Both the position numbers and the translations under genes were made by a program. The notes beneath the pieces were generated by a model, which was not told the DNA's origin, ran no database searches, and was given only the letters and a program-made list of their open reading frames with translations. A DNA stretch of 64,000 nucleotides from Oscillospiraceae bacterium (GTDB lineage: Bacteria; Bacillota; Clostridia; Oscillospirales; Ruminococcaceae), in the NCBI GenBank assembly GCA_024684395.1, contig JAIKWY010000049.1, positions 1-64,000 on the forward strand. The letters run 5' to 3'. Position 1 is the first letter of the stretch. Each line of letters begins with the position of its first letter. Positions 19,466 through 38,068 of this stretch are shown here, piece after piece.

Positions 19466-19479
19466 CGTCGTATCTGGTA

Positions 19480-19512: not shown

Positions 19513-19581
19513 TTCACGATTTTCAGAGCCTGTTTTTCATGCGGCGAAATGCTGTGAGACCGGCTTTCAGGAGGGGATCTC

Positions 19582-21000
19582 ATGATGGACACAGAGAACG
19601 AGGAAAAGCTCCAACAGGCGGAAAAACTTGCCCGCCAGGTGCTGCAATACGCCAGAAACAGCCTGTTTCTCAATCTGCGTTTCATGGACAGCGCTGTCAG
19701 CCGTCTGTTTCCGGCGCCGTGTCCTGTCAACGGCATGGGGACGGATACACGCCATCTCTTTTTCGACAGCTTGAGCCTGCTCAGGATCTTTGCGGGGAAC
19801 AACCGCCGTGTCACACGCATGTATCTGCATACGGTGCTGCACTGCGTGTTCCAGCATCCCTATGTCGGCAGCGTGACCCGGCTGGATGTGTGGGATCTGG
19901 CATGTGACATCGCCGTGGAGCAGATGATCCGGGATCTGGCGCTCCCGTGCCTCGAAGATCCCTGTGAGGGCTTGCAGTCGCAGGTGCTCATCGCTTTGCA
20001 GAGCAAGGTCAAGATCATGAATGCCGAGCATATCTACCGCTATTTCATGGATCAGGACATCACGGACATCCAGTGCGCCGAGATGCAGAAGGCGTTCTAT
20101 ATGGACGATCATTCCCCCTGGTACGCCCCGCCCGAGGGCTACGGCAAGGGCAAAGGCGGCGGCGGTTCCGAGAACTACGGCAGCCACTATCCCGATGACG
20201 GTCAGGGCGGCGGCAATTCCGACGAGGAGGATGAAGACGGCGCCATGAGCGAGCGGGAAGCCAGAGAGAGCTGGGACCGCATCTCCCGCCAGATCCAGGT
20301 GGATCTTGAGACGTTCTCGAAATCCCGTGGCGACCACGCCGGCAACATGATCCAGAACCTCAAGGCACTCCACCGGGAACGCTGCGACTACAGCGATTTC
20401 CTCCGCAGATTCTCCGTCTACGGCGAGGTCATGCACATCGACGAGGACACGTTCGACTACAATTTCTACACCTACGGCATGGATCTCTACGGGGATATGC
20501 CGCTGGTCGAGCCGCTCGAATACAAGGAGATGAAGCGGGTGCGGGAGTTCGTCGTGGCGATCGACACCTCCGGCTCCGTGGCAGGCGAGACCGTGCAGAA
20601 ATTCGTGCAGAAGACCTACAACATCCTGAAACAGCAGGAGAGCTTCTTCTCCAAGGTGAATATCCACATCATCCAGTGTGATGCCGACATCCAGGAGGAT
20701 GCCAAGATCACCTGCCAGGAGGAGTTTGACATCTATATCCAGAACATGAAGATCCACGGACTGGGCGGCACGGATTTCCGACCGGTGTTCTCCTATGTGG
20801 ATGAGCTCATCAAGGCGAAGGAGTTCCAGAACCTGAAAGGGCTGATCTACTTCACGGACGGCTACGGACGCTTCCCGACCGCACCGCCAGCATACAAGGC
20901 AGCGTTTGTCTTCCTGGATGAGGAGTGCAATTCCTATAACGTCCCGCCGTGGGCGATCAGCCTCGTGCTGGAAAAGGCGGACATTGAGGAGGAAAACTGA
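19582..21000 (+). CDS. vWA-domain protein with a metallopeptidase-like N-terminus (DUF2201-like)
   Basis: 472 residues. The N-terminal half has the helical layout of DUF2201 putative metallopeptidases (YLHTVLHCVFQHP, then WDLACDIAVEQMI). The expected HExxH reads H83-T-V-L-H87, so the catalytic Glu is missing. A Gly/Asp-rich linker (~185-225) precedes the C-terminal von Willebrand A-like domain with a complete metal site: D328-T-S-G-S332, T397 in GGTDF, and D426 in YFTDG. vWA proteins of this type normally act with a MoxR AAA+ ATPase, and one is encoded at 33275. The stop overlaps the next start by one base. Confidence 0.88.
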   Translation: MMDTENEEKLQQAEKLARQVLQYARNSLFLNLRFMDSAVSRLFPAPCPVNGMGTDTRHLFFDSLSLLRIFAGNNRRVTRMYLHTVLHCVFQHPYVGSVTRLDVWDLACDIAVEQMIRDLALPCLEDPCEGLQSQVLIALQSKVKIMNAEHIYRYFMDQDITDIQCAEMQKAFYMDDHSPWYAPPEGYGKGKGGGGSENYGSHYPDDGQGGGNSDEEDEDGAMSEREARESWDRISRQIQVDLETFSKSRGDHAGNMIQNLKALHRERCDYSDFLRRFSVYGEVMHIDEDTFDYNFYTYGMDLYGDMPLVEPLEYKEMKRVREFVVAIDTSGSVAGETVQKFVQKTYNILKQQESFFSKVNIHIIQCDADIQEDAKITCQEEFDIYIQNMKIHGLGGTDFRPVFSYVDELIKAKEFQNLKGLIYFTDGYGRFPTAPPAYKAAFVFLDEECNSYNVPPWAISLVLEKADIEEEN

Positions 21001-23492
21001 TGGGACTGTTCCGTAAAAATCGACTTGTGATCAAGGGCTCAACGCTTGTTAAATTCAATCCCGAGGCACATGAGCTGCATGACGTGACCGTGGAGATCCC
21101 GGAGTACGTCACGGACATCGGCGATCATGCATTTGCGGGGACGAATGTGGAAAAAGTGACCTTCCATTCCGGCGTGCGGCGCATCGGAAAAGGCGCATTT
21201 GAGGGCTGTAAGGAGCTCAGAAGAGTCGTGCTCCCGCAGGGGCTGACAGAGCTTGCCGAAAGTGCGTTCCGGGATTGCACAGCCCTGGAAAATGTCGCCT
21301 TCCTCGGCAAGACAAGCGTGATCAGCAGCTATTGCTTCAGCGGCTGTTCCACGCTCGAACAGATCGAGCTCCCGGACGGGACACAGAGGATCTGCTCCTT
21401 CGCCTTCAAGGACTGCGTCAAGCTGACGGAGGTCACGCTTCCCGCAGGCATCCGGAACGTGCAGGGCTGGGCGTTTGCAGACTGCAAATGGCTGCGGACG
21501 ATTCGGTTCAGAGGGCCGGTCAGGGTGGAGGATGTCTTTGCCGACACCGCCTTCGGGGGATGCGGCAAGATCAGCTTTGTCGATCTGAGCAAGCCAAAGC
21601 CCGCACCGAAGCCCGTGCAGACAGCAAAGCCCGCTGCACCCAAGCCCGTGCAGACAGCAAAGCCTGCCGCACCCAAGCCCGTGCAGACAGCGAAGCCTGC
21701 CAAACCGAAGCCCGTGCAGACAGCAAAGCCCGCCGAACCGCCAAAGCCCGTGCAAATGGCACAGCCTGCCAAACCAAAGCCCGTGCAGACAGCCAAGCCT
21801 GCCGAGCCGTCAAAGCCCGTTCCTACAGCAGCTCCGGATCTGTTCGAGATCCGGGAGGATGAGCTCATCCGCTACAAGGACAAAGGCGGGGATACCGTAA
21901 CGCTTCCCGGGAACATCCGGGTCATCGGCGAGAGCGCCTTCCGGAAGTCGGGCGTCAGAAAGGTCATCCTTCCGGCATCGCTGCAAAAGATCGGGAGCGC
22001 TGCCTTCCAGCAGTGCAAATCGCTCACGGAGATCGTCTTCCCGGAAAAGCTCGGGAGCATCGGCAGCTATGCCTTTGAGGAATGCACGGCATTGCAGTCC
22101 GTGACGCTGCCCGCTGCACTGGAGACCATCCCGGCATCCTGTTTTGCAGGCTGCACATCGCTGCGGGAGGTCACTGTCCCGGAGAGCGTGAAGCTGATCC
22201 GTTCCGGGGCATTCCGGGACTGCACCGGCTTGCAGACCATTTATGCACAGGCGGAGATCCCCTCCGAGGCGCTCGTGGGCTGCGGCAAGGTGAAGATCAT
22301 CCGTGGGGATGCAAAGCCTGAAACACCTTCGCCGTTCAAGATCGAAGGCACCGTCCTCGTGAAGTACACCCCGGCAGCGGATGCGCCCGCAGAGGTCGTC
22401 ATCCCGGAGGGCATCACGGAGATCGGGAACGAGGCATTCAAGGAGACCGCCGTGGAGAAGGTCATCTGTCCTTCCACGCTGATAAAGATCGGGGAAAACG
22501 CCTTCAACCACTGCGAAAAGCTCCGGAGGATCACGCTCCCCGAGGGGCTGCGGGAGCTCTCCTATAACACGTTCGTGTTCTGCGCATCGCTGCAGGAGAT
22601 CACGCTCCCCAAGGGCATGGAGAGGATCCCGATCCATTGCTTCTTCTGCTGCTACAGCCTGCAAAGCATCGTCATCCCGGAGGGCGTGACGGAGATCGGC
22701 ACGGAGGCATTTTACAAATGCACGAGCATGACGGAGGCCACGCTCCCCGCATCCATCCGGAAGATCGGCATGTGGGCATTCTCCGGATGTACGGCACTGC
22801 GGGTGATCCACATGCATCTGGACATCCGGAAGCTCGACGGATTCAGCATGAACATCCTGAAGGACTGCGGCGAGGTGAAGTTTGACGACCTGACCCTCAG
22901 CCGATCGCCGGTACAGACCGCACAGCCCGCAAAGCCGAAGCCTGCGCCAAAGCCAGTGCCAAAGCCTGCGCCGGAACCTGTGGAGGATATAGCAGTGCAG
23001 GAGAAGCATTCCGCCGAAAGGGAACAGCTTGCGGAGGAGGCAAAGAAGCTTGCAGAGGAGGCAGCCCGCATTGCGGAGGAGCGCCGCCGTTTGCAGGAGG
23101 AAGCCGCCCGCCAGGAGGAGGAACGCCGCCGCTTAGAGGAAGAGGAGCAGCGCCGCCGTGAAGAGGCGGAAGCCCGTGAGGAGGAACAGCGCCGCCGGGA
23201 GGAGGAAGCCCGTCAGGAAGCCGCAAAGCGGAGCGTGATCGGCGCCGATACCACCCCGGAGGAGGTCATCCGCATTTATGCGGAGTTCCGGACGCCGGAG
23301 TCTGTGCACTATCTGGCATCCAACTTCAAGCTTGTCGTGCGGCGGGTGCTCGATGCAGATGCCGGAACGATCCGGAGCATGGTGACAGACCCGTTCATCG
23401 GCACCACGAACAATGTCCGGCTGCTCGAACGCTTTGCCAGACTGGCTTCACGGCAGGATGTGCTGGATCTGATCACAGAATGTAGAAAATAG
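21000..23492 (+). CDS. LRR / Pro-Lys linker / coiled-coil protein with the shared C-terminal tail
   Basis: 830 residues, cytoplasmic, translationally coupled to the vWA gene. Order: header LVIKGSTLVKFNPE and an LRR_5 block; a linker of tandem KPVQTAKPA units; a second block (header FEIREDELIRYKDKGGD); a third (FKIEGTVLVKYTP); a KPAPKP linker; a long charged coiled coil (~665-750, RIAEERRRLQEEAARQEEER); and the ~80-residue tail with DPFIGTTNNVRLLERFARLA and SRQDVLDLI. The tail recurs in four other cluster proteins. The layout suggests three recognition arrays on a stalk ending in a docking domain; this role is inferred. Confidence 0.88.
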   Translation: MGLFRKNRLVIKGSTLVKFNPEAHELHDVTVEIPEYVTDIGDHAFAGTNVEKVTFHSGVRRIGKGAFEGCKELRRVVLPQGLTELAESAFRDCTALENVAFLGKTSVISSYCFSGCSTLEQIELPDGTQRICSFAFKDCVKLTEVTLPAGIRNVQGWAFADCKWLRTIRFRGPVRVEDVFADTAFGGCGKISFVDLSKPKPAPKPVQTAKPAAPKPVQTAKPAAPKPVQTAKPAKPKPVQTAKPAEPPKPVQMAQPAKPKPVQTAKPAEPSKPVPTAAPDLFEIREDELIRYKDKGGDTVTLPGNIRVIGESAFRKSGVRKVILPASLQKIGSAAFQQCKSLTEIVFPEKLGSIGSYAFEECTALQSVTLPAALETIPASCFAGCTSLREVTVPESVKLIRSGAFRDCTGLQTIYAQAEIPSEALVGCGKVKIIRGDAKPETPSPFKIEGTVLVKYTPAADAPAEVVIPEGITEIGNEAFKETAVEKVICPSTLIKIGENAFNHCEKLRRITLPEGLRELSYNTFVFCASLQEITLPKGMERIPIHCFFCCYSLQSIVIPEGVTEIGTEAFYKCTSMTEATLPASIRKIGMWAFSGCTALRVIHMHLDIRKLDGFSMNILKDCGEVKFDDLTLSRSPVQTAQPAKPKPAPKPVPKPAPEPVEDIAVQEKHSAEREQLAEEAKKLAEEAARIAEERRRLQEEAARQEEERRRLEEEEQRRREEAEAREEEQRRREEEARQEAAKRSVIGADTTPEEVIRIYAEFRTPESVHYLASNFKLVVRRVLDADAGTIRSMVTDPFIGTTNNVRLLERFARLASRQDVLDLITECRK
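21596..21830 (+). repeat. Tandem repeat coding KPVQTAKPA units
   Basis: About seven imperfect 33-36-base units built on AAGCCCGTGCAGACAGCAAA. They form the Pro-rich spacer between LRR blocks 1 and 2 and are likely to vary in number between strains. Confidence 0.8.
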
Positions 23493-23567
23493 CCCTTTCG
23501 GAGACCGGATCCCGGCTGCTCCGGAGGGGACAGCGACCCGGTAAGATACAGAAAAGGAGAATCTGAA

Positions 23568-26087
23568 ATGGGAAAAGCAGTTATCGAAAACGGTATCATG
23601 GAATCGTATGAGTTCACCATGCCCGGCAACGTCAAGATCACCGTTGAAGAGGGCGTGAAAGCCTTTGGCGAGCGCTGTTTCTTTGAGCAGAAGAAGCTGA
23701 CCAAGATCATTCTGCCCGGTACGCTCGAAACGCTGGACGGCTGGTGCCTTTCCGGCAGCGGGATCAAGAAGCTCCTTGTCCCGGAGGGTACAACTGCGGT
23801 CAGGGATCATGCTGTATCGAACTGCCGCTCCCTGAAAACGGTCTGGCTCCCGTCCACGCTCACGGAGCTGAGCGGAAGCTGCTTTGAGAACTGCCCGCTG
23901 CTCGAAGAGGTGTTCCTGGCAGCGCCCGCACTGCAATTCCAGCCGGAGACAGTGTTCCGGAACTGCCCTGCGGTCAAGGTCATCCTGGTGGACGGCGAGG
24001 GCGAGCCGGTGCGGGAGCTCTATACCGGCGAGAGCGTCGGCAAGAAGCCGGATCCTGCCGATGCAGGCGAGGAAGGCTTCGAGATCCGGGGCGACCTCCT
24101 TTCCGAGGTCAATCTGCCGGACGGCAATGACATCCGGGTAACGCTCCCGCCCAACATCTTCCGCTACAGCTCCAAGCTCCTCAAGGGCGAAGAGAGCGTG
24201 ACGGAGATCATCATCCCGGAGGGCGTTGAGTCGCTGACCGGCTGGGAATTTGCCGGGACGGGCATCCGGGAGATCCGTCTGCCGGAGAGCCTGAAAAAGC
24301 TCGACGGGCATGTTTTTGACGGCTGCAAGGAGCTGCGCCGTGTGTATCTGCCGGCGTCTCTGGATGAGGTCACGGGCGATGTCTTTGCCAACTGCCCGAA
24401 CCTCGAACTGGTGCTGACTGCCGGTTCTCTGCCCATCGCACGCACCAATGTCTTTGAAAACTCCCCGATGCCCTGGATCGCTTGCTGCGACAAGCGGGAC
24501 AGAAAGCCGATCATACCGAGGGGCTTTACCGTGAAGGACGGCGTGCTCGAGGCTGTGGAGCCCGATGTGACCGATGAGAACGGCTGTCTGCGGATCCCGT
24601 TCGGCGTCACCCGCATCGCACCGGAATGCCTGAAAGACCGCAGTGAGATCAAGCGCCTGCTTTTGCCGCCCGGACTGGAGATGCTGACCGACCGGGAATT
24701 TTCCGGCACATCCATCTGGGAGATCCGTCTGCCGGAGAGCCTGATCCGTCTGGACGGGCATGTGTTCGAGAACTGCACGGAGCTCGAATCTGTCGTGCTG
24801 CCGTCGCATATGACAGCGCTCCGGGGCGAGCTGTTCCACAACTGTCCGAAGCTGAAATACATCTTCTACGGCGGCAAGAAGCTGACCTGCGAAGACAGCT
24901 GCTTCGATGAAGGCCACAAGCCGGAGCTCCTGTACCGCAACCCCTATTCGGAATGGCATACCTATCTGGGCGATACCTACAGCGATACGCTGTTCGATGT
25001 GGAGGACGGCGTGCTGATCCGCTACAAGGGCGATGAGCGTTACTACAACATCGGCATCCCTAAGGGCGTGCGCTGCATTACCACGGCTTGCTTCAAGGGT
25101 ATGAAGCATATCAAGCTCGTGGTCTTCCCGGAGACGCTGCGGGAGCTGGTCGGCTGGGAATTTGCCGGCACCGGCATCACCGAGATCTACTTTCCCGACA
25201 GTCTGCGGAAGCTGGACGGCAACTGCTTTGAAGGCTGCGAGTCGCTCCAGACGGTCTATCTCCCGAAGCATATGACCCGCTTCGGCACGGAGGGCGAATG
25301 CGCCTGCTTCCGGAACTGCACGCAGCTCGGGAAGATCTATTATGCATCCGAGAAGGTGACATACTTCAACTCCGCATTCGAGGGCTGTCCGCATTTCCTG
25401 TTCGTGCAGAAATTCTGGGACAAGAAGCCGCAGCTGCCCGATGACGAGCATACGACCCCGCAGGAATGCGTGGCGATCGAGACGGGCGCAGCCTCCGAGC
25501 AGGAGCAGGCGCCTGAGCGTGATCCGGTGACGGATCCGTATGCAGAAGAAGACCTGTCCTCACTTGAAGACCTGTTTGAAGACGATCCGGAGGAAGCGCC
25601 GGAGGAAGAGCCCGAGGAAGCACCGGAGGATCAGTCTGACGAAGAATTTGACGAGGATCTGGAGCAGATGTATCTTGACCGGATCCATAAGCTCGAAGAG
25701 GAGCTGGTGCAGCAGAAGGAGCAGAACGCTGCCAACGTGGAGCATTACAAGAAGCTGGCAGAGATTCGTTCGCAGCTCGTGGAAGCGGCACAGGAGAAGT
25801 CCCGCATGGAGACAGAGCGGCTCCATCGTGAGGAATGCCGCCAGCTCGAGGAGCAGGTCGCTGAATTACAGCACCGGCTCGACCTTGCCGAGACGAAGAA
25901 CCGTGCCTCCGAGAGCGTGATGCAGAATGTCCTGCTGGCGCTCGATGCGGAGATGCCCCCGGAGGAGCGTGAGAGCATCCTAAAACAGTTCCGGAGCGTT
26001 GCCGGAAAGCTGATCGCACGGGACGCACAGGGCAATGCAGCCGACGGTGATGACACCGGAGAAGGAGACGGCGATGGCGAAGTTTGA
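23568..26087 (+). CDS. Four-module LRR protein with acidic linker, coiled coil and a decayed tail
   Basis: 839 residues, RBS AAAGGAG. Four tandem modules of ~150 residues, each with a header (FEIRGDLLSEVNLPD, FTVKDGVLEAVEP, FDVEDGVLIRYKGD) and the LRR pattern EFAGTGIREIRLPESLKKL. Then a strongly acidic stretch (~665-700), a coiled coil (~705-785), and ESILKQFRSVAGKLIARD. That last part matches the first half of the tail seen in its neighbours (compare SILMQFSKAVYAML), but the second half with the IGT...ARR signature is replaced by an Asp/Gly-rich end. It overlaps the next gene by 14 bases. Confidence 0.86.
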   Translation: MGKAVIENGIMESYEFTMPGNVKITVEEGVKAFGERCFFEQKKLTKIILPGTLETLDGWCLSGSGIKKLLVPEGTTAVRDHAVSNCRSLKTVWLPSTLTELSGSCFENCPLLEEVFLAAPALQFQPETVFRNCPAVKVILVDGEGEPVRELYTGESVGKKPDPADAGEEGFEIRGDLLSEVNLPDGNDIRVTLPPNIFRYSSKLLKGEESVTEIIIPEGVESLTGWEFAGTGIREIRLPESLKKLDGHVFDGCKELRRVYLPASLDEVTGDVFANCPNLELVLTAGSLPIARTNVFENSPMPWIACCDKRDRKPIIPRGFTVKDGVLEAVEPDVTDENGCLRIPFGVTRIAPECLKDRSEIKRLLLPPGLEMLTDREFSGTSIWEIRLPESLIRLDGHVFENCTELESVVLPSHMTALRGELFHNCPKLKYIFYGGKKLTCEDSCFDEGHKPELLYRNPYSEWHTYLGDTYSDTLFDVEDGVLIRYKGDERYYNIGIPKGVRCITTACFKGMKHIKLVVFPETLRELVGWEFAGTGITEIYFPDSLRKLDGNCFEGCESLQTVYLPKHMTRFGTEGECACFRNCTQLGKIYYASEKVTYFNSAFEGCPHFLFVQKFWDKKPQLPDDEHTTPQECVAIETGAASEQEQAPERDPVTDPYAEEDLSSLEDLFEDDPEEAPEEEPEEAPEDQSDEEFDEDLEQMYLDRIHKLEEELVQQKEQNAANVEHYKKLAEIRSQLVEAAQEKSRMETERLHREECRQLEEQVAELQHRLDLAETKNRASESVMQNVLLALDAEMPPEERESILKQFRSVAGKLIARDAQGNAADGDDTGEGDGDGEV

Positions 26088-28491
26088 GATCCGCAGCGGC
26101 ATCCTTGCCGCCTATACGCCGGCTCCCGTAGAACGGGAGCTGACGCTGCCGGAGGGCATCACGGGCGTGGCGTGTGAGCTCGACCCGGCGCATACACTCG
26201 AAAAACTGACAGTCCCGGCAGGCAGCCTTGTGCGGCTCGATCCGTTTTTCCTGCAGCGCAGTCCGGTGAAAGAGGTGCATCTCTCGTGGCAGACGCTGTT
26301 CATAGATGCGTTCGCCTTCTGGGGATGCAGGTCGCTGGAAAAGGTGTACCTGACCGAGGGTACGGTCGTCCATCCGGATGCCTTCAACGGCTGCGATCAT
26401 GTGGATCTGGTATGGCAGCCGCAGCCCCCGCTGACGGAGCAGGAACGTGCTGTTATGCGCAGCGGCGTGCTGATGGGCTATCTGTTCGCACCCGGCGAGA
26501 CGGTGCTGACTGTCCCCGAGGGCGTGCGTTCCGTTGCATGGCACGGCGTCCCCGGCAGCGATGTCCTGACCAAAATAACGATCCCCCCGCACAGCATCGT
26601 CCGGCTCGGTGAGAATGCCTTCCGGGACTGCACGGCGCTGCGGGAGGTACAGCTCTCGGAGGAGACTGCCTCCGTGGGCGCAGGGGCATTCCGGGGCTGT
26701 ACGGCACTGGAGTCCATGACCGTGTATGACGGCACCTGCGTCCATCCGTCCGCCTTTGAGGACGGAAAACGTCCGTTCATCGTCACCGGTGCAGCACCGG
26801 CGGAGCGCTTTGTCATCCGGAACGGCGTGCTGTACGGCTGCTTCTTCCCGGAGGGCGTGACAGACTGCAATGTCCCTGCCGGTGTGGAACGCATTGCGGA
26901 GGAGGCGTTTGCCGGGAATGATACCATGCAGACGCTCACGCTCCCGGAGAGCCTGAAGGAGATCGGCGACAGCGCCTTTCTTGACTGCACGGCACTGCAA
27001 AGCGTGAAGCTCCCGGAGGGGCTGCGCATCCTCGGCAGAAATGCCTTCTGCGGCTGCATCGCATTGCAGAGCGCAGTGCTCCCGGGCAGTCTGCGGATCG
27101 TGCCGATGGGCGCCTTTGAGGGCTGCACGGCACTGCAGAGCGTGACGCTCCCGGAGGGCATCCGGCGCATCGCAGCAGCGGCATTCCACGGCTGTTCCAT
27201 CACGGAGCTGCATCTTCCGGACAGCCTTGCGGAGGTCGGAAAGTGGGCATTCACCGGGAACACGGCATTGCAGGGGGCAAGCCTCTCCGACAGGACACTT
27301 GCCGACCCCGGCGCTTTCCCGGAGGGCATGGCACCCATAAAACGCAGCGGTGCCGAGCAGGAGCCCATCCCCTATGACGAGATGTTCTGCATCCGGGACG
27401 GCGTGTTGTATGACTTCTGCCCGCAGCCGGATGTGACAGATATTGAGATTCCCCCGGAGGTCACGGTCATCGAGGACAAGGCGCTGTGCAATATACAGAC
27501 ATTGACAGGCGTCCTGCTGCCGGAGACGGTGCAGGAGATCCGCATCCGGGATCTGCGGATCCTCGGGGCAGACAGCGATTTCAACGCCTGCTTCTGGATG
27601 TGCAGCCGGCTGACCGACCTGATCTATGCGCCGGACACGGTGCTCGAACAGACCGATGGCTATGGCTTTGCGGCGCCACGCTATGTACCGGCGCTCGAAC
27701 GCATCCGCCTGCCGGAGCTGCTCGGGAGCCATCCGGGCATCGGTGAATGGAACGGCGAGGAACACGCAGAGGGCTGCCGCATCCGGGAGCTCGTCATCCC
27801 GGAAACAGGCTGCGAGACCTTCCGGATCGACAATTGTCCGGCGCTCGAAACGATCTTCGTGCCGGGTACGGTGCGGAACATCAGCATCCACGATTGTCCG
27901 GCGCTGCACTCGATCTTCACCATCTCGGACAATACCGCTTCGGGCGGGAATGCGGATCATACCACGCCCCCGCAGGCAAAGATCTCAGATGTACGGCATA
28001 CGCCGGAGGTATGGGATATGCTGCTGAGCGATGCCGCCAAGCGGCAAAATGAGGGGATCGCTGCGCTGCGGGAACGTATCGCCGCACAGCGCACAGCCCT
28101 TGCCAAGCGCCTTGCCGCACCGGAGAGCCCTGCATATGAAGCGCCTGTACAGAAGCCCGTCCCCGCACCTGCGGAGCCTGTGACGGAAACGCCCGTCATC
28201 GAAGCGCCTGCACAGGAGCCTTCCGTGCCGCAGGTGACGATCACCGATCCGCATACGATCGATGAGTATCTGCTCTATTATGCACAGACAAATGACCCGG
28301 CGAGCGAGGCATATATCGCACAGCATTTCCGGGAGGCGGCACGCTTCCTCGTGGAGATGGAGCTCGGTGTGACCACGGCTGTGATGCACGGGATACGGAT
28401 CGGCACCACCCCCAACAAGAACCTCCTGCTGAGCCTTGCAAGACGCAGCCGCAGAGAGGATATCATACAGTTCTTACAGCAAAACAGATAA
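26074..28491 (+). CDS. Four-block LRR protein with the shared C-terminal tail
   Basis: 805 residues from the ATG at 26074, chosen because AAGGAGA lies 6 bases upstream and the protein then starts at the family header FEIRSGILAAYTP. Four LRR_5 blocks with headers near residues 3, 130, 245 and 430 (e.g. FVIRNGVLYGCFFPEGVTDC). A Pro/Glu-rich linker (~690-725, KPVPAPAEPVTETPV) leads to the tail: ASEAYIAQHFREAARFLVEM, IRIGTTPNKNLLLSLARRSR and REDIIQFL. There is no coiled coil here, so the tail is independent of the coiled-coil region. Cytoplasmic. Confidence 0.87.
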   Translation: MAKFEIRSGILAAYTPAPVERELTLPEGITGVACELDPAHTLEKLTVPAGSLVRLDPFFLQRSPVKEVHLSWQTLFIDAFAFWGCRSLEKVYLTEGTVVHPDAFNGCDHVDLVWQPQPPLTEQERAVMRSGVLMGYLFAPGETVLTVPEGVRSVAWHGVPGSDVLTKITIPPHSIVRLGENAFRDCTALREVQLSEETASVGAGAFRGCTALESMTVYDGTCVHPSAFEDGKRPFIVTGAAPAERFVIRNGVLYGCFFPEGVTDCNVPAGVERIAEEAFAGNDTMQTLTLPESLKEIGDSAFLDCTALQSVKLPEGLRILGRNAFCGCIALQSAVLPGSLRIVPMGAFEGCTALQSVTLPEGIRRIAAAAFHGCSITELHLPDSLAEVGKWAFTGNTALQGASLSDRTLADPGAFPEGMAPIKRSGAEQEPIPYDEMFCIRDGVLYDFCPQPDVTDIEIPPEVTVIEDKALCNIQTLTGVLLPETVQEIRIRDLRILGADSDFNACFWMCSRLTDLIYAPDTVLEQTDGYGFAAPRYVPALERIRLPELLGSHPGIGEWNGEEHAEGCRIRELVIPETGCETFRIDNCPALETIFVPGTVRNISIHDCPALHSIFTISDNTASGGNADHTTPPQAKISDVRHTPEVWDMLLSDAAKRQNEGIAALRERIAAQRTALAKRLAAPESPAYEAPVQKPVPAPAEPVTETPVIEAPAQEPSVPQVTITDPHTIDEYLLYYAQTNDPASEAYIAQHFREAARFLVEMELGVTTAVMHGIRIGTTPNKNLLLSLARRSRREDIIQFLQQNR

Positions 28492-28542
28492 CGGCGGGAT
28501 GCGCATCATCCCAGAAGCCGCATGATAAAGGAGCGTACAGGA

Positions 28543-30285: not shown

Positions 30286-30299
30286 CACCGGGAGAGATG

Positions 30300-30857: not shown

Positions 30858-30886
30858 CACCGCAGTGCCGTCAGAAGGAGACGATG

Positions 30887-32071
30887 ATGAAAAAGAAGGC
30901 TACAAACACAAAGGGGAGCCATACCGGGCAGCGCACAGAGCAGCCCGTCAGCCGCACGCTGATCCTTGCGGACGGCTCCCTCTACACCGGCGAGCTCGAT
31001 GCGGAGAATCGTCCGCATGGCAGCGGTGTGATGAGCTATGCAAGCGGTGCCGAGTATGAGGGCGAATGGCGCTCCGGCAAGCGCTCCGGAACGGGCTCGA
31101 TGACCTATCCCGACGGCAGCAGCTACGACGGCACCTGGGAGAATGACGAAAAGAACGGCACCGGCAGATACCTGCGCCCGGACGGCAGTGTCTATGAGGG
31201 AGATTTCGCCGACGGCATGTACCACGGGACAGGCACGCTGACAGAAGCAGACGGTGCCTCCTATACGGGCGCATTCCGGAACGGGGAATTTGACGGTATG
31301 GGACGCATGGCCTATGCCGGCGGTACGATATATGACGGCATGTGGCGGGAAGGACTGCGGGACGGCAAGGGCATCTGTACCTATCAGGACGGCAGATCCG
31401 TCAAGGGCATCTGGATGGATGACCGGCTCATCGGCGCAGCAGAAACGTCTTCCCATGCCGATGAAACAGCAGAGCTCCGTTCCGAGCTCGCAGCACTGCA
31501 AGAGAAGCTCCGGGATGCTGCACAGCTTGCAGAGGAGAACAAGCGCCTGCGGGCAGAGCTTGACAAGATGATAAAAGAGCAGAAATGCCTTGCACAGGCA
31601 TCCGATGGCGATGCGGAAGAGCTCCGGGAGCTGCGGGAAGCACATGCCGAGGATGAAAAGCAGATCAGGGCATTGCAGAGAAAGCTCGATAAGATGGCAG
31701 AAGAGAAGAAACGCCTTGCACAGGCATCCGAAGAGAAGATCGCCGGACTACAGGCGGAGGTCGATGCCCTGCAGGAAAAGCTCGCTGCGCTGTCTGAGAA
31801 AGAGACCCCTGATGCTCCGGATGCACCGGCAGAGACGGTCATAAGGCGCATCGAGGAGATCCTGGCGGAGTATCTGGACACGCTCTCCGAGGAGGCAGAG
31901 CAGCAGCTGGCAGTGCGCTTCCGTGAGACAGCCTTTGCGCTGATGGATTGCAGCGTGGAGGAGGCTTCCAAGGTCATGCGCAGCCCGATCATCGGCACCG
32001 ACAGGAACAAGCGCCAGCTCCGCAACCAGGCACGCCGTGCCAACAGGCTGGACATTGCGCAGATGGTCTGA
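30887..32071 (+). CDS. MORN-repeat / coiled-coil protein with the shared C-terminal tail
   Basis: 394 residues from the ATG at 30887 (AAGGAG 6 bases upstream, versus 3 for the ATG at 30884). About seven MORN repeats at residues ~25-180 (YEGEWRSGKRSGTGSMTYPD), a coiled coil at ~195-310 (LREAHAEDEKQIRALQRKLD), then the tail: EEAEQQLAVRFRETAFALMD, SPIIGTDRNKRQLRNQARRA and NRLDIAQMV. The tail is very close to that of the next gene, so these two C-termini are recent relatives. Confidence 0.88.
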   Translation: MKKKATNTKGSHTGQRTEQPVSRTLILADGSLYTGELDAENRPHGSGVMSYASGAEYEGEWRSGKRSGTGSMTYPDGSSYDGTWENDEKNGTGRYLRPDGSVYEGDFADGMYHGTGTLTEADGASYTGAFRNGEFDGMGRMAYAGGTIYDGMWREGLRDGKGICTYQDGRSVKGIWMDDRLIGAAETSSHADETAELRSELAALQEKLRDAAQLAEENKRLRAELDKMIKEQKCLAQASDGDAEELRELREAHAEDEKQIRALQRKLDKMAEEKKRLAQASEEKIAGLQAEVDALQEKLAALSEKETPDAPDAPAETVIRRIEEILAEYLDTLSEEAEQQLAVRFRETAFALMDCSVEEASKVMRSPIIGTDRNKRQLRNQARRANRLDIAQMV

Positions 32072-32110
32072 GATCACCGGCAGCAGGTGCGCTGCGTGAG
32101 GAGGAAATTT

Positions 32111-33259
32111 ATGGGAAAGATGGCTCCAAAGGAATTTCTGGAAAGGTTGAATGCTCACACCGAGGAAGAGCAGATCCAGATCATGACAAATATCCTGAAG
32201 TGGGCGGATGAGACACAGATCGCAAGACAGGAAGCGGAGTTGTACAAGCGTACTGCCGACAAGCTCTCCGATCAGATCGTACAGCTCAAGGCCGAGGCAC
32301 AGGTGGCTGCAAGAATGCAGCCGGAATCCGGTGATGCTTCCGGATGGGCTGAACAGAAGCAGCAGTATGAGGATCAGATCAAGATGCTGAAAAGCAAGCT
32401 CGATTTCCAGACGAAGCGTGCGGATGGTCTGGCTGAGAGCGTTCAGGCGGAGCACGACAAGTACGAGGCAGAGCATGCGACCTGCGAGGGTCTGGCTGCA
32501 CAGTGTCGTAAGCTCAATGAGGAGAAGGAGCGCCTGGCAGAGAAGCTCCAGGACACCGCTGGCGGCGCTGCTGCTAAGGTTACTGCTTCTGCTGCATATA
32601 CTGCTCTTGCAGATGAGAATGAAGCGCTGAAGAAGCAGCTCGAGGAGCTCCGCAGAAAGGCGGGCGCTCTCGACGAGATCGATTCTCTCAAGAAAGTCAA
32701 TATGACCCAGAAGATGCAGCTCGAGGAGCTCGCCAAGGAGAAGGAAGCCCTCGACGCTAAGGTCAGGGATCTGACCAGCGAGGTCGACCGCTTCAAGAGT
32801 GACAGCGATGATGCCAGGACCCTCGCAGAGGAGAAGGCAAAGCTGCTCGAGGAGAACAAGAAGCTGAAGCAGCAGCTTGCGGAGAGCGGAAACATGCAGG
32901 AGCATCTCTACAAGCTCAATATGGCCAATATCGAGCTGCGTGAGGAGAATGATGCGCTCCGGGCAAAGGCCGGGGATCTCGGGAAAGAACTTGAGGAGAT
33001 GCAGAAAAAACAGGACGGCGAAAACGGAAAAAAGCGCATCGAGAACGTTCTGACCGACTATCTCAGCACGCTTTCTGAGGAAGCCGAGCAGGAGCTTGCC
33101 GACCGGTTCCGGGAAACGGCATTCATCCTCATGGACTGCAGTGCGGAGGATGTCGTGCGTGTCATGAAGAGCCCGGTCATCGGGACGGAGACAAACAAGC
33201 GGCTCCTGCGCAACCAGGCACGCCGCTTCAACCGGGATGACATTGCGCAGAGCATATAA
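32111..33259 (+). CDS. Coiled-coil protein with the shared C-terminal tail
   Basis: 382 residues from the ATG at 32111 (GGAGG 7 bases upstream). Almost the whole protein up to residue ~305 is heptad-rich coiled coil (e.g. KKVNMTQKMQLEELAKEKEA) without LRR or MORN repeats, ending in the tail: EEAEQELADRFRETAFILMD, SPVIGTETNKRLLRNQARRF and NRDDIAQSI. With no recognition array, it could be the oligomerising core that the other tailed proteins join, placed directly before the AAA+ gene. That role is inferred. Confidence 0.86.
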   Translation: MGKMAPKEFLERLNAHTEEEQIQIMTNILKWADETQIARQEAELYKRTADKLSDQIVQLKAEAQVAARMQPESGDASGWAEQKQQYEDQIKMLKSKLDFQTKRADGLAESVQAEHDKYEAEHATCEGLAAQCRKLNEEKERLAEKLQDTAGGAAAKVTASAAYTALADENEALKKQLEELRRKAGALDEIDSLKKVNMTQKMQLEELAKEKEALDAKVRDLTSEVDRFKSDSDDARTLAEEKAKLLEENKKLKQQLAESGNMQEHLYKLNMANIELREENDALRAKAGDLGKELEEMQKKQDGENGKKRIENVLTDYLSTLSEEAEQELADRFRETAFILMDCSAEDVVRVMKSPVIGTETNKRLLRNQARRFNRDDIAQSI

Positions 33260-33274
33260 CAAACGGAGGCACAT

Positions 33275-34786
33275 ATGAACATTCAGGAAGCAAAGGAACA
33301 GATCAAGAACACCGTCAGAGCCTATCTGACACAGGACAGCCTCGGGAGATACCTGATCCCGCCGCACAAGCAGCGTCCGGTCTTTCTCATGGGCCCGCCC
33401 GGCATCGGCAAGACTGCCATCATGGAGCAGATCGCTTCGGAGCTGCACATCGGACTGCTGTCCTATTCCATGACCCACCACACCCGCCAGAGTGCGCTCG
33501 GTCTGCCGATCATCAAGCATGTGGAATATGACGGAAAGCCCTATGACATCTCGGAATACACGATGAGCGAGATCATCTCCTCCATCTATGAATTGCAGGA
33601 GCGCACCGGCTTCCGCACGGGTATTTTGTTCCTCGACGAGATCAACTGCGTCTCCGAGACACTGACACCCATCATGCTGCAATTTTTGCAGTACAAGGTG
33701 TTCGGGCGCCACACCGTCCCTGCCGGATGGATCGTGGTCACAGCGGGCAATCCCCCGGAGTACAACAACGCCGTGCGGGAGTTCGACATCGCCACATGGG
33801 ACAGACTGAAACGCATCGACGTGGAGCCGGATTTTGCGGCATGGAAGGAATTTGCCTACGAGAGCGGCATCCATGCCTCGATCATGACCTATCTGGGCAA
33901 TGACGAGAACTACATGAACCGCTTCTACCGGGTGAAGTCCACCGTGGACGGCAAGCGCTTCGTCACCGCCCGTGGCTGGGACGATCTGAGCCAGATGCTC
34001 TACCTCTACGAGATGCACAGGATCCCGGTGGATGTCAAGCTCATCGGGCAGTACATCCAGGATCCGGAGATCGCCTCGCATTTCTCGGCATACTATGACC
34101 TCTACAACAAATACCGCAGCGACTACCAGATCGCTTCCATCCTCGAAGGCGAAGCACCGCCGGAGATCCGCAAACGTGCGAAGAGCGCCAAGTTCGACGA
34201 GCGCTATTCACTGCTCGGTCTGCTGCTCGAAGCGGTGATGTCCGGCATGAAGAGCTGCATGGATATGGATGCGCATCTGACCTCACTGCTGGTGATCCTC
34301 AAGGGCATCAAGCAGACGCTCGCAACCGGCAGCGGCGATGCAGGGCAGCTCCTTGAAAAGGCGATCGCCGAACAGAAGGATGCAACGGAGCGCGGCATCC
34401 GGGCAAGAAGCCTGACCAACGAGCAGCAGTCCGCTGCCGCACAGCTGCTGCACACCCTGAGCACACTGTTGACGGAGGTCGGGATCCATCCCGAGGAGGA
34501 CGGCTTCACCGTCATCAAGCGGAATTTCGATGCGCAGGTCGCAGCGCTCAACAGCGATGTGAAGCATGTCTCTGCACAGGTCTCGAACATGTTCAGGTTC
34601 TGTGACGATGTGTATCCGGAGGGCAGAGAGCTGAGCATCCTCGTGGCAGAGCTGACCGCCAACCCGCATTCCGCGCGGTTCCTTGCCAAGTACCGTGTTG
34701 AAGAATATTTCATCCACAACAAGTCACTGATGTTCCAGGAACGCCGGCGGGAGATCCTGTCGGAGATCGAATCACTGGATCTGTAA
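33275..34786 (+). CDS. MoxR-type AAA+ ATPase (AAA_5)
   Basis: 503 residues, RBS GGAGG. AAA+ core with Walker A GPPGIGKT (residues 40-47), Walker B ILFLDEIN (117-124), sensor-1 segment VVTAGNPPEYNN, and an Arg finger candidate in WDRLKRI. A C-terminal helical region of ~230 residues follows (LLEAVMSGMKSCMDMDAHL...). MoxR ATPases remodel or assemble proteins together with vWA partners; the partner here is almost certainly the vWA protein at 19582, unusually separated from it by seven repeat-protein genes. The Walker motifs are intact, so it should be active. Confidence 0.92.
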   Translation: MNIQEAKEQIKNTVRAYLTQDSLGRYLIPPHKQRPVFLMGPPGIGKTAIMEQIASELHIGLLSYSMTHHTRQSALGLPIIKHVEYDGKPYDISEYTMSEIISSIYELQERTGFRTGILFLDEINCVSETLTPIMLQFLQYKVFGRHTVPAGWIVVTAGNPPEYNNAVREFDIATWDRLKRIDVEPDFAAWKEFAYESGIHASIMTYLGNDENYMNRFYRVKSTVDGKRFVTARGWDDLSQMLYLYEMHRIPVDVKLIGQYIQDPEIASHFSAYYDLYNKYRSDYQIASILEGEAPPEIRKRAKSAKFDERYSLLGLLLEAVMSGMKSCMDMDAHLTSLLVILKGIKQTLATGSGDAGQLLEKAIAEQKDATERGIRARSLTNEQQSAAAQLLHTLSTLLTEVGIHPEEDGFTVIKRNFDAQVAALNSDVKHVSAQVSNMFRFCDDVYPEGRELSILVAELTANPHSARFLAKYRVEEYFIHNKSLMFQERRREILSEIESLDL

Positions 34787-34803
34787 GAGAGGAGAGAAAC
34801 GAA

Positions 34804-36957
34804 ATGAACAGACTGAAAAAGACCGCAGCATTCTGCCTTGCACTGGCGATGGCATCCGGCATGGTCGTGACGGCAAATGCCCTCGAAGTGCCGGAGACGG
34901 AGAATCCCATGCCCTACACCGAGGTATACGAGCCCCAGACGGCATGGGCAGCGGCAGCGACCGTGGCATGGCGCACGGACAGCAATGCCGTATCTGTCTC
35001 GGAGAATGAGCAGCGCCCTGCCACCGGCTTTGTCTGGCTCGATGCGGAGCTCAAGGTCTATGACCGGGACGGCAACCAGCTGTCGGAAAAGCTCAATGAC
35101 TATATCACAGCGACACAGGGCAGGATGATCCCGGCGCTCTATATCAAGGATGCCGAGACCGCTGCTGCCTTGAAGGACTATCTGCGGGAGAGCGGCTTGC
35201 AGGACTGCTTCGTCGTTTCCACACCGGAGAACAAGGAGCTCGTGCAGGATGTGGCTGACCTGCTGCATGTCCGTGGTATGCTCGACTATACCGGGACCTC
35301 CGAGGCGGATCAGGATGCGCTGCTGGAGATGGCTGCTTCCGTGAATGCCGCACACGGCAAGGTCGCACTGCTGAACCAGTCGCTTGCCACGAAGGAGAAC
35401 ATCAGCCTGCTGCAAGCGCACGGCGTTTCCGTCTGGGCACAGACCGGCTCGGATACCCGCACCCTCGTGACGCTCTTCCTCAACGGCGTCGGCGGCATCC
35501 TGACCGATGATTATGCGGCAGCGATCCGTGCCGAGGAGAAGTTCCAGAGCGATGTGCCTTCTCTGCTGCGCCAGCCGGGTCAGGCTGCGGTCTGCACGGT
35601 CGATCTCGGCGAGGACGGCACGCTCATGGCAGCGGACAAGAGCTTCAGGGAGACGCTCGAAGCGGCGGAGCAGCCGCTTGCGGTGATGCTGCGGTCGGGC
35701 GATTATGACGGCTTCAAGGCTGTTGTGGATGAGCTGGATGCATGGGGCAAAATCGCTTCCGTGACAGCCGGCGGCGAGGTGCTCGAGAAGCTCTATGCGG
35801 AGCATCCGGAGATCGCTGTAGCAACATCGGCATCCGGTGAGGACACGGCACAGCGCATGGGCAGTCTGGATCGCTACAATGCGTCCTATCTGCCGGAGGA
35901 ATACAATGCAGAGACAGCTGCTGCGGCACGTCACAGAGGTCTGGGCGTACTCGGCGGCGAGGACAGTGAAGCGTATCTGCATGGTGCAGATGCCACCAGC
36001 CTGATGCAGCCGGATGCCATCGTGGAGATCAGCGCCTCGGATGTGACGGCTGCCAATGACAGCGACATCCCGAAGCCCGAGGGCAAAAAGCTGAACGGCG
36101 AGACGCAGACCCTCGACAATGCAGAGCTCGTGCAGCTCGAACAGTATGATGACAACGGTGCCCGCCGTCTGATGATCTGGCGTTACAAGACCACGCTGAC
36201 CGTCGGCGAGGAGAGCAAGGGCGAGTACTATGTCTACTCTGCGCCGTTTGAGGTGAACAAGGCAGATGACTGGCAGTTTGCGGGCTTTAGCTATGATACG
36301 GACGAATCCGGCGACCCGATGAATGTCAAGGCGAAGTTCGTTTCGGCAGGCAACGGCGATGTATCCACGACCGTAAATGCAGACCGCACCGAGCGTGAGC
36401 GCCATGACCCGACCTGTACCGAGGGCGGCAGCGTGACATGGGGCGGCATCGTCAGCGGCGACAGGAGCCTTGACCATCAGCAGCATGAGGACGTGCTCCT
36501 CACCCGCAACATGGATGCGCACGGGCATGAATATGAGACAAAGTACACCTGGTTCGATGACAACAAGCAGGTGACAGCCGAGCACAAGTGCAAGCACTGC
36601 GGCGAGGGCGAGTGCGAGACCGTCAACACCTTCTCCAAGATCATCAAGCGTGCCACTGCCACGGAGGACGGCTCGAAGTACCTGATCGCACAGTTCGAGA
36701 ATGAGGAGCTGTTCCAGGAGCAGTCCATCATTGTGACGATCCCCGCCAAGGGCAGCACCGCGACTCCGCCTGACAGGAACACCTACAGCACCGGCAGGGG
36801 CGGCACGACCTCCCAGACCGGTTCCAAGACCAACTCCAAGACCGGCGCTGCCGCCGACACCGGCGACAAGAGCCCCCTCGGCCTCTGGTTCGGGATGGGT
36901 GCTGTCAGCCTGCTGGGTATGGGGCTGACGGTACGGCGTAAGAAAATGGAGAAGTGA
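34804..36957 (+). CDS. Secreted GDPD-like TIM-barrel protein with a C-terminal membrane/wall anchor
   Basis: 717 residues. Signal peptide to about residue 26 (CLALAMASGMVVTANA). Residues ~50-360 hold two stretches of the glycerophosphodiester phosphodiesterase type (LLQAHGVSVWAQTGSDTRTL then FLNGVGGILTDDY, and later DGFKAVVDELDAWGKIASVT), but I cannot see the paired catalytic HR and E-x-D residues, so it may be inactive. Later parts are rich in beta strands and two Cys pairs (CKHCGEGEC). The end reads AADTGDKSPLGLWFGMG, a hydrophobic segment and RRKKMEK, like a sortase signal with a variant motif. Probably the cell-surface member of the cluster. Confidence 0.75.
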   Translation: MNRLKKTAAFCLALAMASGMVVTANALEVPETENPMPYTEVYEPQTAWAAAATVAWRTDSNAVSVSENEQRPATGFVWLDAELKVYDRDGNQLSEKLNDYITATQGRMIPALYIKDAETAAALKDYLRESGLQDCFVVSTPENKELVQDVADLLHVRGMLDYTGTSEADQDALLEMAASVNAAHGKVALLNQSLATKENISLLQAHGVSVWAQTGSDTRTLVTLFLNGVGGILTDDYAAAIRAEEKFQSDVPSLLRQPGQAAVCTVDLGEDGTLMAADKSFRETLEAAEQPLAVMLRSGDYDGFKAVVDELDAWGKIASVTAGGEVLEKLYAEHPEIAVATSASGEDTAQRMGSLDRYNASYLPEEYNAETAAAARHRGLGVLGGEDSEAYLHGADATSLMQPDAIVEISASDVTAANDSDIPKPEGKKLNGETQTLDNAELVQLEQYDDNGARRLMIWRYKTTLTVGEESKGEYYVYSAPFEVNKADDWQFAGFSYDTDESGDPMNVKAKFVSAGNGDVSTTVNADRTERERHDPTCTEGGSVTWGGIVSGDRSLDHQQHEDVLLTRNMDAHGHEYETKYTWFDDNKQVTAEHKCKHCGEGECETVNTFSKIIKRATATEDGSKYLIAQFENEELFQEQSIIVTIPAKGSTATPPDRNTYSTGRGGTTSQTGSKTNSKTGAAADTGDKSPLGLWFGMGAVSLLGMGLTVRRKKMEK

Positions 36958-36962
36958 GCGCT

Positions 36963-37862
36963 ATGAAGAAACTGATCTATACCGATAACATCGGGTTTGA
37001 TATGGATGACTGGCTCAATCAGCCGATCAAAAAGGTGTTTGCAGGAACAGACTGCATCATGGCTGTCACGGAGGACGGAAGGACGCTGCAAAAGATCAGG
37101 CATCCGAGGAATGCCGCAGCGGTGATCTATTGGACAAGGATCCAGGAGATCGCACTGAGTGCGTGGTTCCCCGGTCTGGCGATCGGACTTGTCAGTGACG
37201 GCACCTGCCTGATCGCCAAAAAGCCGACACGAAACGCAATCAGTCTGCGGAACCAGATCCCGTTTGAGATCGTCAATAACAAGATCAAGTCCTGGAAGCA
37301 TATCGTGCAGGTAGCTGTTTCTGATGCGTTTTTTGCTCTGACAGACGATGGAAGGGTACACTATGCCGCATTGGAACGTAACGGCGAGGAGGACTATCGT
37401 GATGTGCTTTCATGGCGGAATGTCAGACGGATCGTTGTCGGAATGCAGTGTTCGATCATTGGCATCACGCACGACGGACAGATGCTGTGTGCCGGTCATG
37501 GTCTTCGCAAAGGACCGAATGGAGATGTCACAGAACGATTGGCTGCCTGCCATGATGTCACAGATGCCTGTATCAGCGGGTCTGAATGCGAAGAGATCGT
37601 CATTGCACGCAAAGACGGTACGGTGGAAAGCATTACCGGACACGGTGAGCCCATCTTCGGCGCTGACGGAAAGGAGAAAATGCTCCGGTCGCATTTCGGG
37701 TATTATTATTATATGCTGGATGCGGAAAACCATCTGTTTATGAAGGCATATGGAGCGCCGAAACCTGTTTTCCCGGATGATCCGCTGATCGATTCGTTTG
37801 CGGTCGGAGATATTGGCTATTCTGAACCTTTTGTGATCGCTACGGGGAGTCCCCGCCAGTAG
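36963..37862 (+). CDS. RCC1-like beta-propeller protein
   Basis: 299 residues from the ATG at 36963; a GTG at 36954 overlaps the upstream stop but is only ~4 bases from GGAG. No signal peptide. Repeats of ~50 residues with the RCC1 pattern: IKKVFAGTDCIMAVTEDGRT, VQVAVSDAFFALTDDGRVHY, VRRIVVGMQCSIIGITHDGQ. RCC1-type propellers are protein-interaction platforms. More AT-rich than the upstream genes. Last gene of the cluster, ending 30 bp before a strong terminator. Confidence 0.8.
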   Translation: MKKLIYTDNIGFDMDDWLNQPIKKVFAGTDCIMAVTEDGRTLQKIRHPRNAAAVIYWTRIQEIALSAWFPGLAIGLVSDGTCLIAKKPTRNAISLRNQIPFEIVNNKIKSWKHIVQVAVSDAFFALTDDGRVHYAALERNGEEDYRDVLSWRNVRRIVVGMQCSIIGITHDGQMLCAGHGLRKGPNGDVTERLAACHDVTDACISGSECEEIVIARKDGTVESITGHGEPIFGADGKEKMLRSHFGYYYYMLDAENHLFMKAYGAPKPVFPDDPLIDSFAVGDIGYSEPFVIATGSPRQ

Positions 37863-37892
37863 CTGTTTCACAAATGGATACTACACTTCGTT

Positions 37893-37926
37893 GCCCCCTG
37901 AGCGATCAGACTCAGGGGGCTTTCTC
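37893..37926 (+). terminator. Terminator of the vWA-MoxR cluster
   Basis: Stem GCCCCCTGAG (37893-37902) with CTCAGGGGGC (37911-37920), followed by TTTCTCT. The same stem appears inverted at 41131-41158. Confidence 0.85.
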
Positions 37927-37965: not shown

Positions 37966-37997
37966 CTCTGTGCCAAAACAGTTTTAACAAAATATAC

Positions 37998-38034: not shown

Positions 38035-38068
38035 ATCCAAATTCCGCAATGAATGGAGTGACAGATCT

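Follow-up and report, generated by a model that had tools for sequence, protein, structure and literature searches.

MoxR-type AAA+ ATPases paired with von Willebrand factor A (vWA) proteins capture client peptides and aid the assembly of complexes (PMC7159879). In the main text of that paper Kaur et al. 2020 describe four MoxR-vWA ternary systems, with a VMAP, iSTAND, FtsH or beta-propeller third component, together with small coupling domains termed EADs, of which by definition one copy is always fused to a core component. For the NorQ-NorD couple, the model given in the excerpted text of PMC9976466 has a finger of the vWA protein plugging the MoxR ring while the metal-ion-dependent adhesion site (MIDAS) of the vWA protein holds the client. 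Here we examine a stretch of 64,000 nucleotides (the window) of contig JAIKWY010000049.1 from the assembly GCA_024684395.1 of an Oscillospiraceae bacterium of the rumen, in which a sequence-only reading had picked out a MoxR-vWA pair bracketing an array of leucine-rich repeat (LRR), MORN and coiled-coil proteins. We report that many Bacillota have loci encoding both a predicted MoxR ATPase and a DUF2201-type vWA protein, their catalytic and MIDAS motifs conserved, and that in about two thirds of the loci examined a third gene lies nearby that bears a predicted helical C-terminal domain (CTD), usually at the C-terminus of a BspA-type LRR protein. The CTD, defined here on LRR proteins beside vWA-MoxR and predicted from sequence, is our main discovery. 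Five genes of the window carry a smaller helical tail, which is probably a diverged form of it.

Comparison with described MoxR-vWA systems

Like the ternary conflict systems, these loci encode a MoxR AAA+ ATPase and a vWA protein together with a further component, and small coupling domains are found on both core and partner proteins; unlike the systems in the main text of PMC7159879, their third component is an LRR_5-CTD protein and their hosts are Bacillota. None of the eleven genes of the window operon gave a Pfam match over the cut-off to a VMAP, iSTAND, double FtsH or beta-propeller/TPR third component, and when variable effector domains were sought in them only repeat and coiled-coil modules were recognised. 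The window MoxR scored 21.2 bits against bpMoxR, for which the cut-off is 27. A beta-propeller ternary system formed through the weakly RCC1-like last gene was considered and rejected, as tblastn of 163 loci (many of them short or overlapping) found no other counterpart of that gene. The main text of PMC7159879 contains neither 'DUF2201' nor 'MORN' and a single 'LRR'.

The CTD and the tail resemble EADs in being small, helical and non-enzymatic (neither has an enzyme family match over the cut-off), and in that copies elsewhere in the genome correlate with the core. They differ from EADs, as the main text of PMC7159879 presents them, in that fusion to the core is seen in only 5 of 95 loci (CTD on vWA) and in that their partners are LRR, MORN and coiled-coil modules, not effector or signalling enzymes. 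Identity of the CTD with EAD7 was rejected: one of 63 CTD members matched (E 0.006), one of many single weak matches, and none of eleven tails. With the NorQ-NorD and RavA-ViaA chaperone couples the loci share a MoxR ATPase and a vWA co-chaperone with an intact MIDAS; they differ from those couples, as far as the sources describe them (main text of PMC7159879, excerpt of PMC9976466), in having a DUF2201-type vWA with a zincin-like N-terminal part and recognition modules on separate repeat proteins. Neither a cofactor enzyme nor a respiratory client was recognised in the window operon. A full-text literature search, whose coverage excludes subscription papers and preprints, returned no paper on a DUF2201-MoxR-LRR system.

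The core proteins

In an alignment of 88 MoxR proteins the Walker A GKT, the Walker B DE and the sensor Asn were all invariant, and each of the residues D, S, S, T and D of the MIDAS was present in 88 of 88 aligned vWA proteins. The zincin-like site of the vWA proteins keeps its two His residues in 84 and 83 of the 88, and the residue after the first His is M in 51, S in 9, T in 7 (the window protein among them) and L in 6. The catalytic Glu that HExxH has in a DUF2201_N metallopeptidase is not kept. For MoxR the ratio of nonsynonymous to synonymous substitution rates (dN/dS) is 0.11-0.16 at dS 0.3-1.0. A MoxR scan of genome contigs yielded 53 loci, labelled mostly Lachnospiraceae or unassigned Clostridiales/Eubacteriales. 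Of the 50 loci L020-L069, 48 have the vWA gene 5' of MoxR; in one of the two exceptions, L025, the sequence starts 76 bp ahead of MoxR. Genes at relatives' loci were called by simple open reading frame (ORF) picking and not by a gene finder; LRRs there, unless Pfam was applied, were recognised by counting motifs and by eye. Several MoxR orthologues terminate in L-x-L or L-x-I.

The CTD and its place at MoxR-vWA loci

The CTD versions of the window's genus and of the Lachnospiraceae matched each other in hhalign with a probability of 96 (E 3e-9). The AlphaFold2 model of the domain (138 amino acids, mean pLDDT 86.7) is all helical, the helices of its last part spanning residues 42-54, 60-68, 70-79, 83-90, 97-109 and 113-127. 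Foldseek returned nothing significant for this model in the PDB (best E 0.24), and at E <= 0.01 no Pfam or NCBIfam family matched two or more CTD members; when the limit was loosened to E <= 10, a single Pfam family matched two. Of 59 proteins in which no more than 30 residues follow the CTD, 47 finish in a hydrophobic-x-L/F motif (for example those of L041, L026 and L104) versus 70 of 1854 other raw ORFs of at least 150 amino acids. The repeats that most often precede the CTD belong to LRR_5 (Pfam PF13306), which we take to be the BspA-type family. Such repeats are common to BspA-type proteins in general; the proteins described here differ in carrying the CTD or tail and in mostly having no signal-like N-terminus (a crude test of hydropathy at ORF starts found no hydrophobic one in 59 of 60 CTD proteins).

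A CTD or tail lies near MoxR in 61 of 93 MoxR rows when an iterated profile of 67 domains is used and, counted by locus with four phylum loci added, in 64 of 95, a non-random sample. With one label per locus, the CTD gene follows MoxR in 24, precedes vWA in 15 and lies between the two in 10; the domain forms a stand-alone small protein 5' of vWA in 6 and is fused to vWA in 5, and 4 loci have the window-type tail. One group of the MoxR-scan loci has an LRR-type protein 3' of MoxR. The five CTD-vWA fusions (L047, L052, L059, L066 and L068) match the iterated profile, which includes them, with domain E-values of 1e-16 to 1e-21; that of L052 reached 2.8e-6 already with the profile before iteration. 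In L047 (170-3673, + strand) one reading frame of a metagenome-assembled genome joins an M20 peptidase, the CTD and the vWA, a putative fusion or an assembly error.

Within the genus, L094-L097, L107-L109 and L111 have no gene in the slot between vWA and MoxR; eight loci have one LRR-type gene there, encoding 240-264 amino acids in seven genomes (L098-L104) and 435 in L105. In L106, from another family of the order, the slot holds a 718-amino-acid LRR_5 protein (6871-9024, - strand), which has an inserted BRCT domain (E 1.7e-8) and an internal CTD. The CTD is common to the proteins of this slot and to those that follow MoxR. A quick MoxR tree of 92 rows placed the three tail loci of sufficient length in one clade (support 99) inside the genus, adjoining empty-slot species. 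The CTD loci were scattered across the tree, so the CTD association looks older than the form seen in the window. The layout of a bracket with an array is a lineage-specific elaboration, the commoner state being a single LRR-CTD gene beside vWA-MoxR.

The genome of the window contains CTD genes beyond the operon. About four kilobases from the vWA gene the window has a tandem array of five LRR-CTD genes (10326-15267, - strand). All five array proteins belong to the profile used for the E-values below; profile A3 holds just one of them (14335-15267), and the other four were found with it.

10326..11498, - strand: LRR_5-type protein with CTD (CTD E 3.4e-31)
11516..12142, - strand: LRR_5-type protein with CTD (CTD E 3.4e-30)
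12160..13407, - strand: LRR_5-type protein with CTD (CTD E 2.6e-29)
13423..14319, - strand: LRR_5-type protein with CTD (CTD E 6.2e-29)
14335..15267, - strand: LRR_5 protein with CTD (LRR_5 E 1e-61; CTD E 3.1e-28)

Two further CTD groups were seen in the same genome (G000), at C11:55353-61507 with six matches and at C79:116246-120221 with four. A relative, G008, has 15 CTD matches within 20 kb (C71:8549-28429), a candidate for the study of how the recognition proteins diversify.

Co-occurrence of the CTD with MoxR

Among 37 genomes (the window's own and 36 relatives), profile A3 at E <= 1e-3 detected the CTD in 18, namely in all 15 with the MoxR orthologue and in 3 of the 22 counted as without it, which include G012 and G038 with MoxR matches of 25-26%. 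MoxR-positive genomes had 1 to 30 CTD matches (22 in the window's own genome, 30 in G008), G043 being positive at no better than E 3.8e-4. We then considered 293 genomes of the class, filtered at a completeness of 90, and 398 genomes of the phylum. In the class, 20 genomes had MoxR (E <= 1e-50) and 12 had the CTD (profile A4), every one of the 12 being MoxR-positive and the 12 spanning eight families; in the phylum, 9 genomes had MoxR and 8 the CTD (profile A5), again all with MoxR. Fisher P values were 1.9e-16 for the class and 6e-16 for the phylum, with genomes counted without kinship correction. The two samples overlap in five genomes that are MoxR-positive in both, the window's own included, and profile A5 contains sequences of G000, G083, G178 and G197, so that the independent CTD-positive genomes of the phylum are G523, G636, G645 and G725.

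In the 11 CTD-positive class genomes besides the window's own, the CTD lies within 2 kb of MoxR in eight and 6.4-7.5 kb away in two; in the eleventh it is on another contig than MoxR, beside a vWA gene. LRR_5 itself, used as a control, was found in 57 of 61 genomes and hence is no marker of the MoxR orthologue: G002, G003, G004, G012, G015 and G021, which have neither the orthologue nor the CTD, each have at least 56-64 LRR_5 matches.

The window operon and its tail domain

The operon at 19582-37862 consists of eleven + strand genes with gaps of at most 75 bp and four overlaps, by ORF analysis. This is as the sequence-only reading had it, and Pfam bears out its further point that seven repeat-protein genes part MoxR from vWA: the DUF2201-type vWA gene is first and MoxR ninth, and of the seven, three are LRR_5 genes, three are MORN genes and one is a coiled-coil gene. 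The features are as follows.

17552..19465, + strand: protein with LacI-like sugar-binding fold and GGDEF, 637 amino acids, directly 5' of vWA (Pfam GGDEF 1.1e-29, Peripla_BP_3 7.4e-23)
19582..21000, + strand: DUF2201-type vWA protein (core) with an intact MIDAS and a zincin-like site that lacks the catalytic Glu (DUF2201 E 2.7e-12, DUF2201_N 1.8e-5)
21000..23492, + strand: LRR_5 protein with helical tail at about 23241-23480 (Pfam, tail profile)
23568..26087, + strand: LRR_5 and coiled-coil protein, tail absent or truncated (Pfam, tail profile)
26035..28491, + strand: LRR_5 protein with tail at about 28252-28482 (Pfam, tail profile)
28522..30285, + strand: MORN protein with tail at about 30043-30282, the tail used for structure prediction (Pfam, tail profile, AlphaFold2)
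30297..30857, + strand: MORN protein without tail (Pfam)
30830..32071, + strand: MORN and coiled-coil protein with tail at about 31835-32068 (Pfam, tail profile)
32087..33259, + strand: coiled-coil protein with tail at about 33029-33256 (Pfam, tail profile)
33275..34786, + strand: MoxR-type AAA+ ATPase (core) (AAA_5 1.3e-7)
34804..36957, + strand: protein that by eye looks secreted and anchored in the membrane by its C-terminus, no Pfam match
36954..37862, + strand: weakly RCC1-like protein (WD40_RLD E 0.002, RCC1_2)
37893..37920, + strand: terminator-like hairpin, 10 pairs, 8 of them GC (hairpin scan)

A common C-terminal tail had been noticed on five genes with differing front ends, and alignment and profile agree. 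The tail, of about 78 residues, is present on five of the seven intervening genes; its alignment has 85 columns, 10 of them invariant, and the window tails are 26-30% identical to the first sequence of the alignment. A profile of the five tails found in the window's own genome those five genes and nothing else at E <= 1, a search that is partly circular in that the profile was built from the same tails. The gene at 23568-26087 appears by eye to have a truncated tail, but its window copy was unmatched and its orthologues in L015 and L014 gave a non-significant E of about 0.6-0.7. The AlphaFold2 model of the tail of 28522-30285 (83 amino acids, mean pLDDT 94.9) is all helical, with six helices at residues 9-19, 22-30, 32-39, 44-51, 59-71 and 75-81. 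Eleven tails had no convincing match in Pfam (best E 0.013, in one member) and the model none of significance in the PDB by Foldseek (best E 1.4); a known domain was on these grounds rejected.

It had been proposed beforehand that the adaptor idea would fall if the tail occurred mostly in genomes without the vWA-MoxR pair. In 61 genomes (the window's own and 60 relatives) the tail was present in four, all of the same genus and all MoxR-positive, an outcome under which the idea stands; among the 293 class genomes strong matches were confined to the window's own. Tails from other genomes are 24-61% identical to the tail of 28522-30285. That tail shares 58-61% identity with its counterparts in L014 and L015 and 25-33% with the other window tails; we read the tails as old and gene-specific. 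Their dN/dS of 0.27-0.52 (dS 0.7-1.0) indicates purifying selection. Tail and front evolve at about equal rates in one MORN gene comparison (0.29 versus 0.30), while in another the tail is faster (0.49 versus 0.23); in the coiled-coil gene the tail (0.27) is far slower than the front (0.74).

Of the last two genes, that at 34804-36957 recurs among the 163 loci solely in G005 (L016), at the same place after MoxR, and that at 36954-37862 in none. The 'RCC1-like propeller' previously proposed for the last gene is a real gene at that place, but its likeness to RCC1 is weak (WD40_RLD, with a cut-off of 150 bits, scored 17.9, and RCC1_2, with a cut-off of 22, scored 16.1). The MORN genes at 30297-30857 and immediately after it appear fused in the relative G013 (L014:7062-8219, cut by the contig end).

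The hairpin at 37893-37920, just 3' of the eleventh gene, is the longest of three terminator-like hairpins on the + strand of 19300-38200, a region with no excess of terminator-like sites (20 versus 15.2 +/- 4.7 in shuffles). From the sequence, one transcript for the eleven genes is plausible. An orthologue of the LacI-like/GGDEF gene stands directly 5' of vWA in eight other loci of the genus (L094-L097, L107, L108, L112 and L113), so the unit may begin at 17552; this neighbour hints at a link to cyclic di-GMP signalling in part of the genus. The assembly (4.2 Mb, 225 contigs, 4.26% contamination) is larger than those of same-genus genomes (1.3-2.9 Mb); the length of its contig, 166,899 bp, and the existence of same-genus relatives of the operon speak for a genuine window. 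Elsewhere in the window, 119-2689, 3906-5444, 5629-6987 and 41178-44129 (- strand) encode proteins that by eye are secreted and have dockerin-like ends, two of them with LRR repeats, which we read as cellulosome-type surface proteins.

Relation of the tail to the CTD

In the tail and CTD models the order of the helices is the same and their spacing similar, as judged by helix positions without superposition. Aligned by hhalign with the iterated CTD profile, the tail reached a probability of 41 (P 2.8e-4, score 23.4), versus scores of at most 14.4 for 54 scrambled or reversed controls, most of those printed lying at a floor near 14.2. The tail was rejected as an obvious CTD homologue, the comparison at first not being significant; after enrichment of the CTD profile homology was kept as probable. 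Sequence and models together suggest that tail and CTD probably have a common origin, the tail being a diverged CTD.

What the system may do

We favour, with a probability of about 0.6, a remodelling machine in the cytoplasm, formed by MoxR and vWA, whose recognition subunits can be exchanged. The CTD, and the tail as its probable derivative, would dock a repeat protein on the vWA/MoxR core, a step that we infer, for vWA or ring, from the analogy with NorQ-NorD. The LRR, MORN or coiled-coil front end would pick the target, and ATP hydrolysis by the MoxR ring might be passed on through the vWA so that the target is remodelled or released, as modelled for NorQ-NorD. In the lineage of the window, the slot between vWA and MoxR would have been filled with seven genes bearing new front ends, making the operon an expanded version. 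The CTD-vWA fusion is the best support for docking. The idea of the tail as an adaptor, put forward in the sequence-only reading, thus gains from these five fusions and from the near-complete co-occurrence of CTD and MoxR, but in the window itself the tail is fused to neither MoxR nor vWA.

This last point is one of several that weigh against such a machine. Neither CTD nor tail is found nearby in 31 of the 95 loci, some of them contig ends and others complete; the complete ones include the genus species with an empty vWA-MoxR slot and a seven-locus Lachnospiraceae clade (L048, L050, L051, L054-L056 and L058). A single weak CTD match occurs in each of three relatives without MoxR (G006, G009 and G016; 83, 87 and 63% complete), and as the CTD profiles were built from MoxR-adjacent proteins, a diverged CTD in MoxR-negative genomes could escape them. 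Weak matches to the tail profile (E 0.001-0.004) occur in four MoxR-negative class genomes (G090:C1:960275-960466, G116:C14:37216-37407, G061:C1:40979-41107 and G333:C69:29379-29558); four such matches among 293 genomes we take as chance. In 26035-28491 the tail has a dN/dS of 0.43-0.52, versus about 0.2 for the LRR part, with dS near 1. As to the kinship of tail and CTD, the probability of 41 is the highest obtained, the other hhalign comparisons were not significant (probabilities of 1, 0.15 and 3.5), and among tails the iterated CTD search picked up a fragment at E 1.2 (one locus in two copies) and a single tail gene of the window at E 3.1.

The same observations could be read with the repeat proteins as substrates, the CTD or tail being the handle by which MoxR-vWA folds, assembles or dismantles them. 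Capture of client peptides and help in complex assembly are established for MoxR-vWA pairs in the main text of PMC7159879, and the hydrophobic-x-L/F ending, so frequent on CTD proteins, could be an engagement signal; yet the window tails have no such ending, and a CTD that is fused to vWA in five loci and stands alone in six is easier to reconcile with a permanent subunit than with the handle of a client, so we consider a substrate role unlikely. We are more doubtful that the tail has nothing to do with the core and is either an oligomerisation tag or a duplication cassette that spread recently, its genes sharing the operon for expression only. The confinement of strong tail matches, in the sets searched, to four genomes of one genus, and the unproven homology to the CTD, would suit such a cassette, but tails that are old, gene-specific, under purifying selection and strongly matched only in MoxR-positive genomes would not, nor would the CTD proteins that occupy the same slot in sister species.

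An immune role is possible, and it is compatible with a remodelling machine and not exclusive of it: the CTD or tail would be a coupler of the EAD type, and the LRR, MORN and coiled-coil proteins would sense invaders in the cytoplasm. The core couple is the same as in the ternary conflict systems, the CTD is both fused to the core and dispersed in paralogue arrays (as the counts for the window's genome and G008 illustrate), and the distribution is patchy. Against this, no effector, nuclease or membrane killer is recognisable in the eleven window genes; the ten proteins, out of eleven, that were scanned against PADLOC matched no system, and their weak matches concern mainly coiled coil and a P-loop stretch; no plasmid matched at E <= 1e-20; and one scan of viral contigs, which finds close relatives only, returned no relative. 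The conflict-system reading proposed earlier for this DNA finds no direct support in these searches and is improbable in our view. In a phage collection 35 records match MoxR (E <= 1e-10), the seven best among those listed being unannotated faecal 'Bacteriophage sp.' (MT835935 and MT837993 included), 40-55% identical and possibly bacterial DNA; an eighth listed match is a Thermus phage with 25% identity. A mobile origin was rejected, there being no plasmid match and no relative in the viral-contig scan, with phage-collection records that are possibly bacterial.

Biological implications

A cytoplasmic remodelling machine of the kind we favour would give the MoxR-vWA couple of many gut anaerobes a third partner and a defined adaptor domain. 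It would also suggest that some of the abundant BspA-type LRR proteins of gut bacteria belong to a cytoplasmic AAA+ machine, and the CTD would serve as a marker for locating the system and its dispersed recognition subunits in any genome. If invaders are indeed what is recognised, bacteria would here have a surveillance system built on LRRs. More speculatively, and in our estimate improbably, the loci could represent a Bacillota-wide intracellular surveillance machine, in which a MoxR-vWA switch is joined through a dedicated helical adaptor to receptors in the cytoplasm that bear LRRs (and here MORN repeats and coiled coils as well), encoded across the genome as a set that can expand; if so, it would be a bacterial counterpart in logic to the LRR-bearing innate immune receptors that are coupled to an NTPase.

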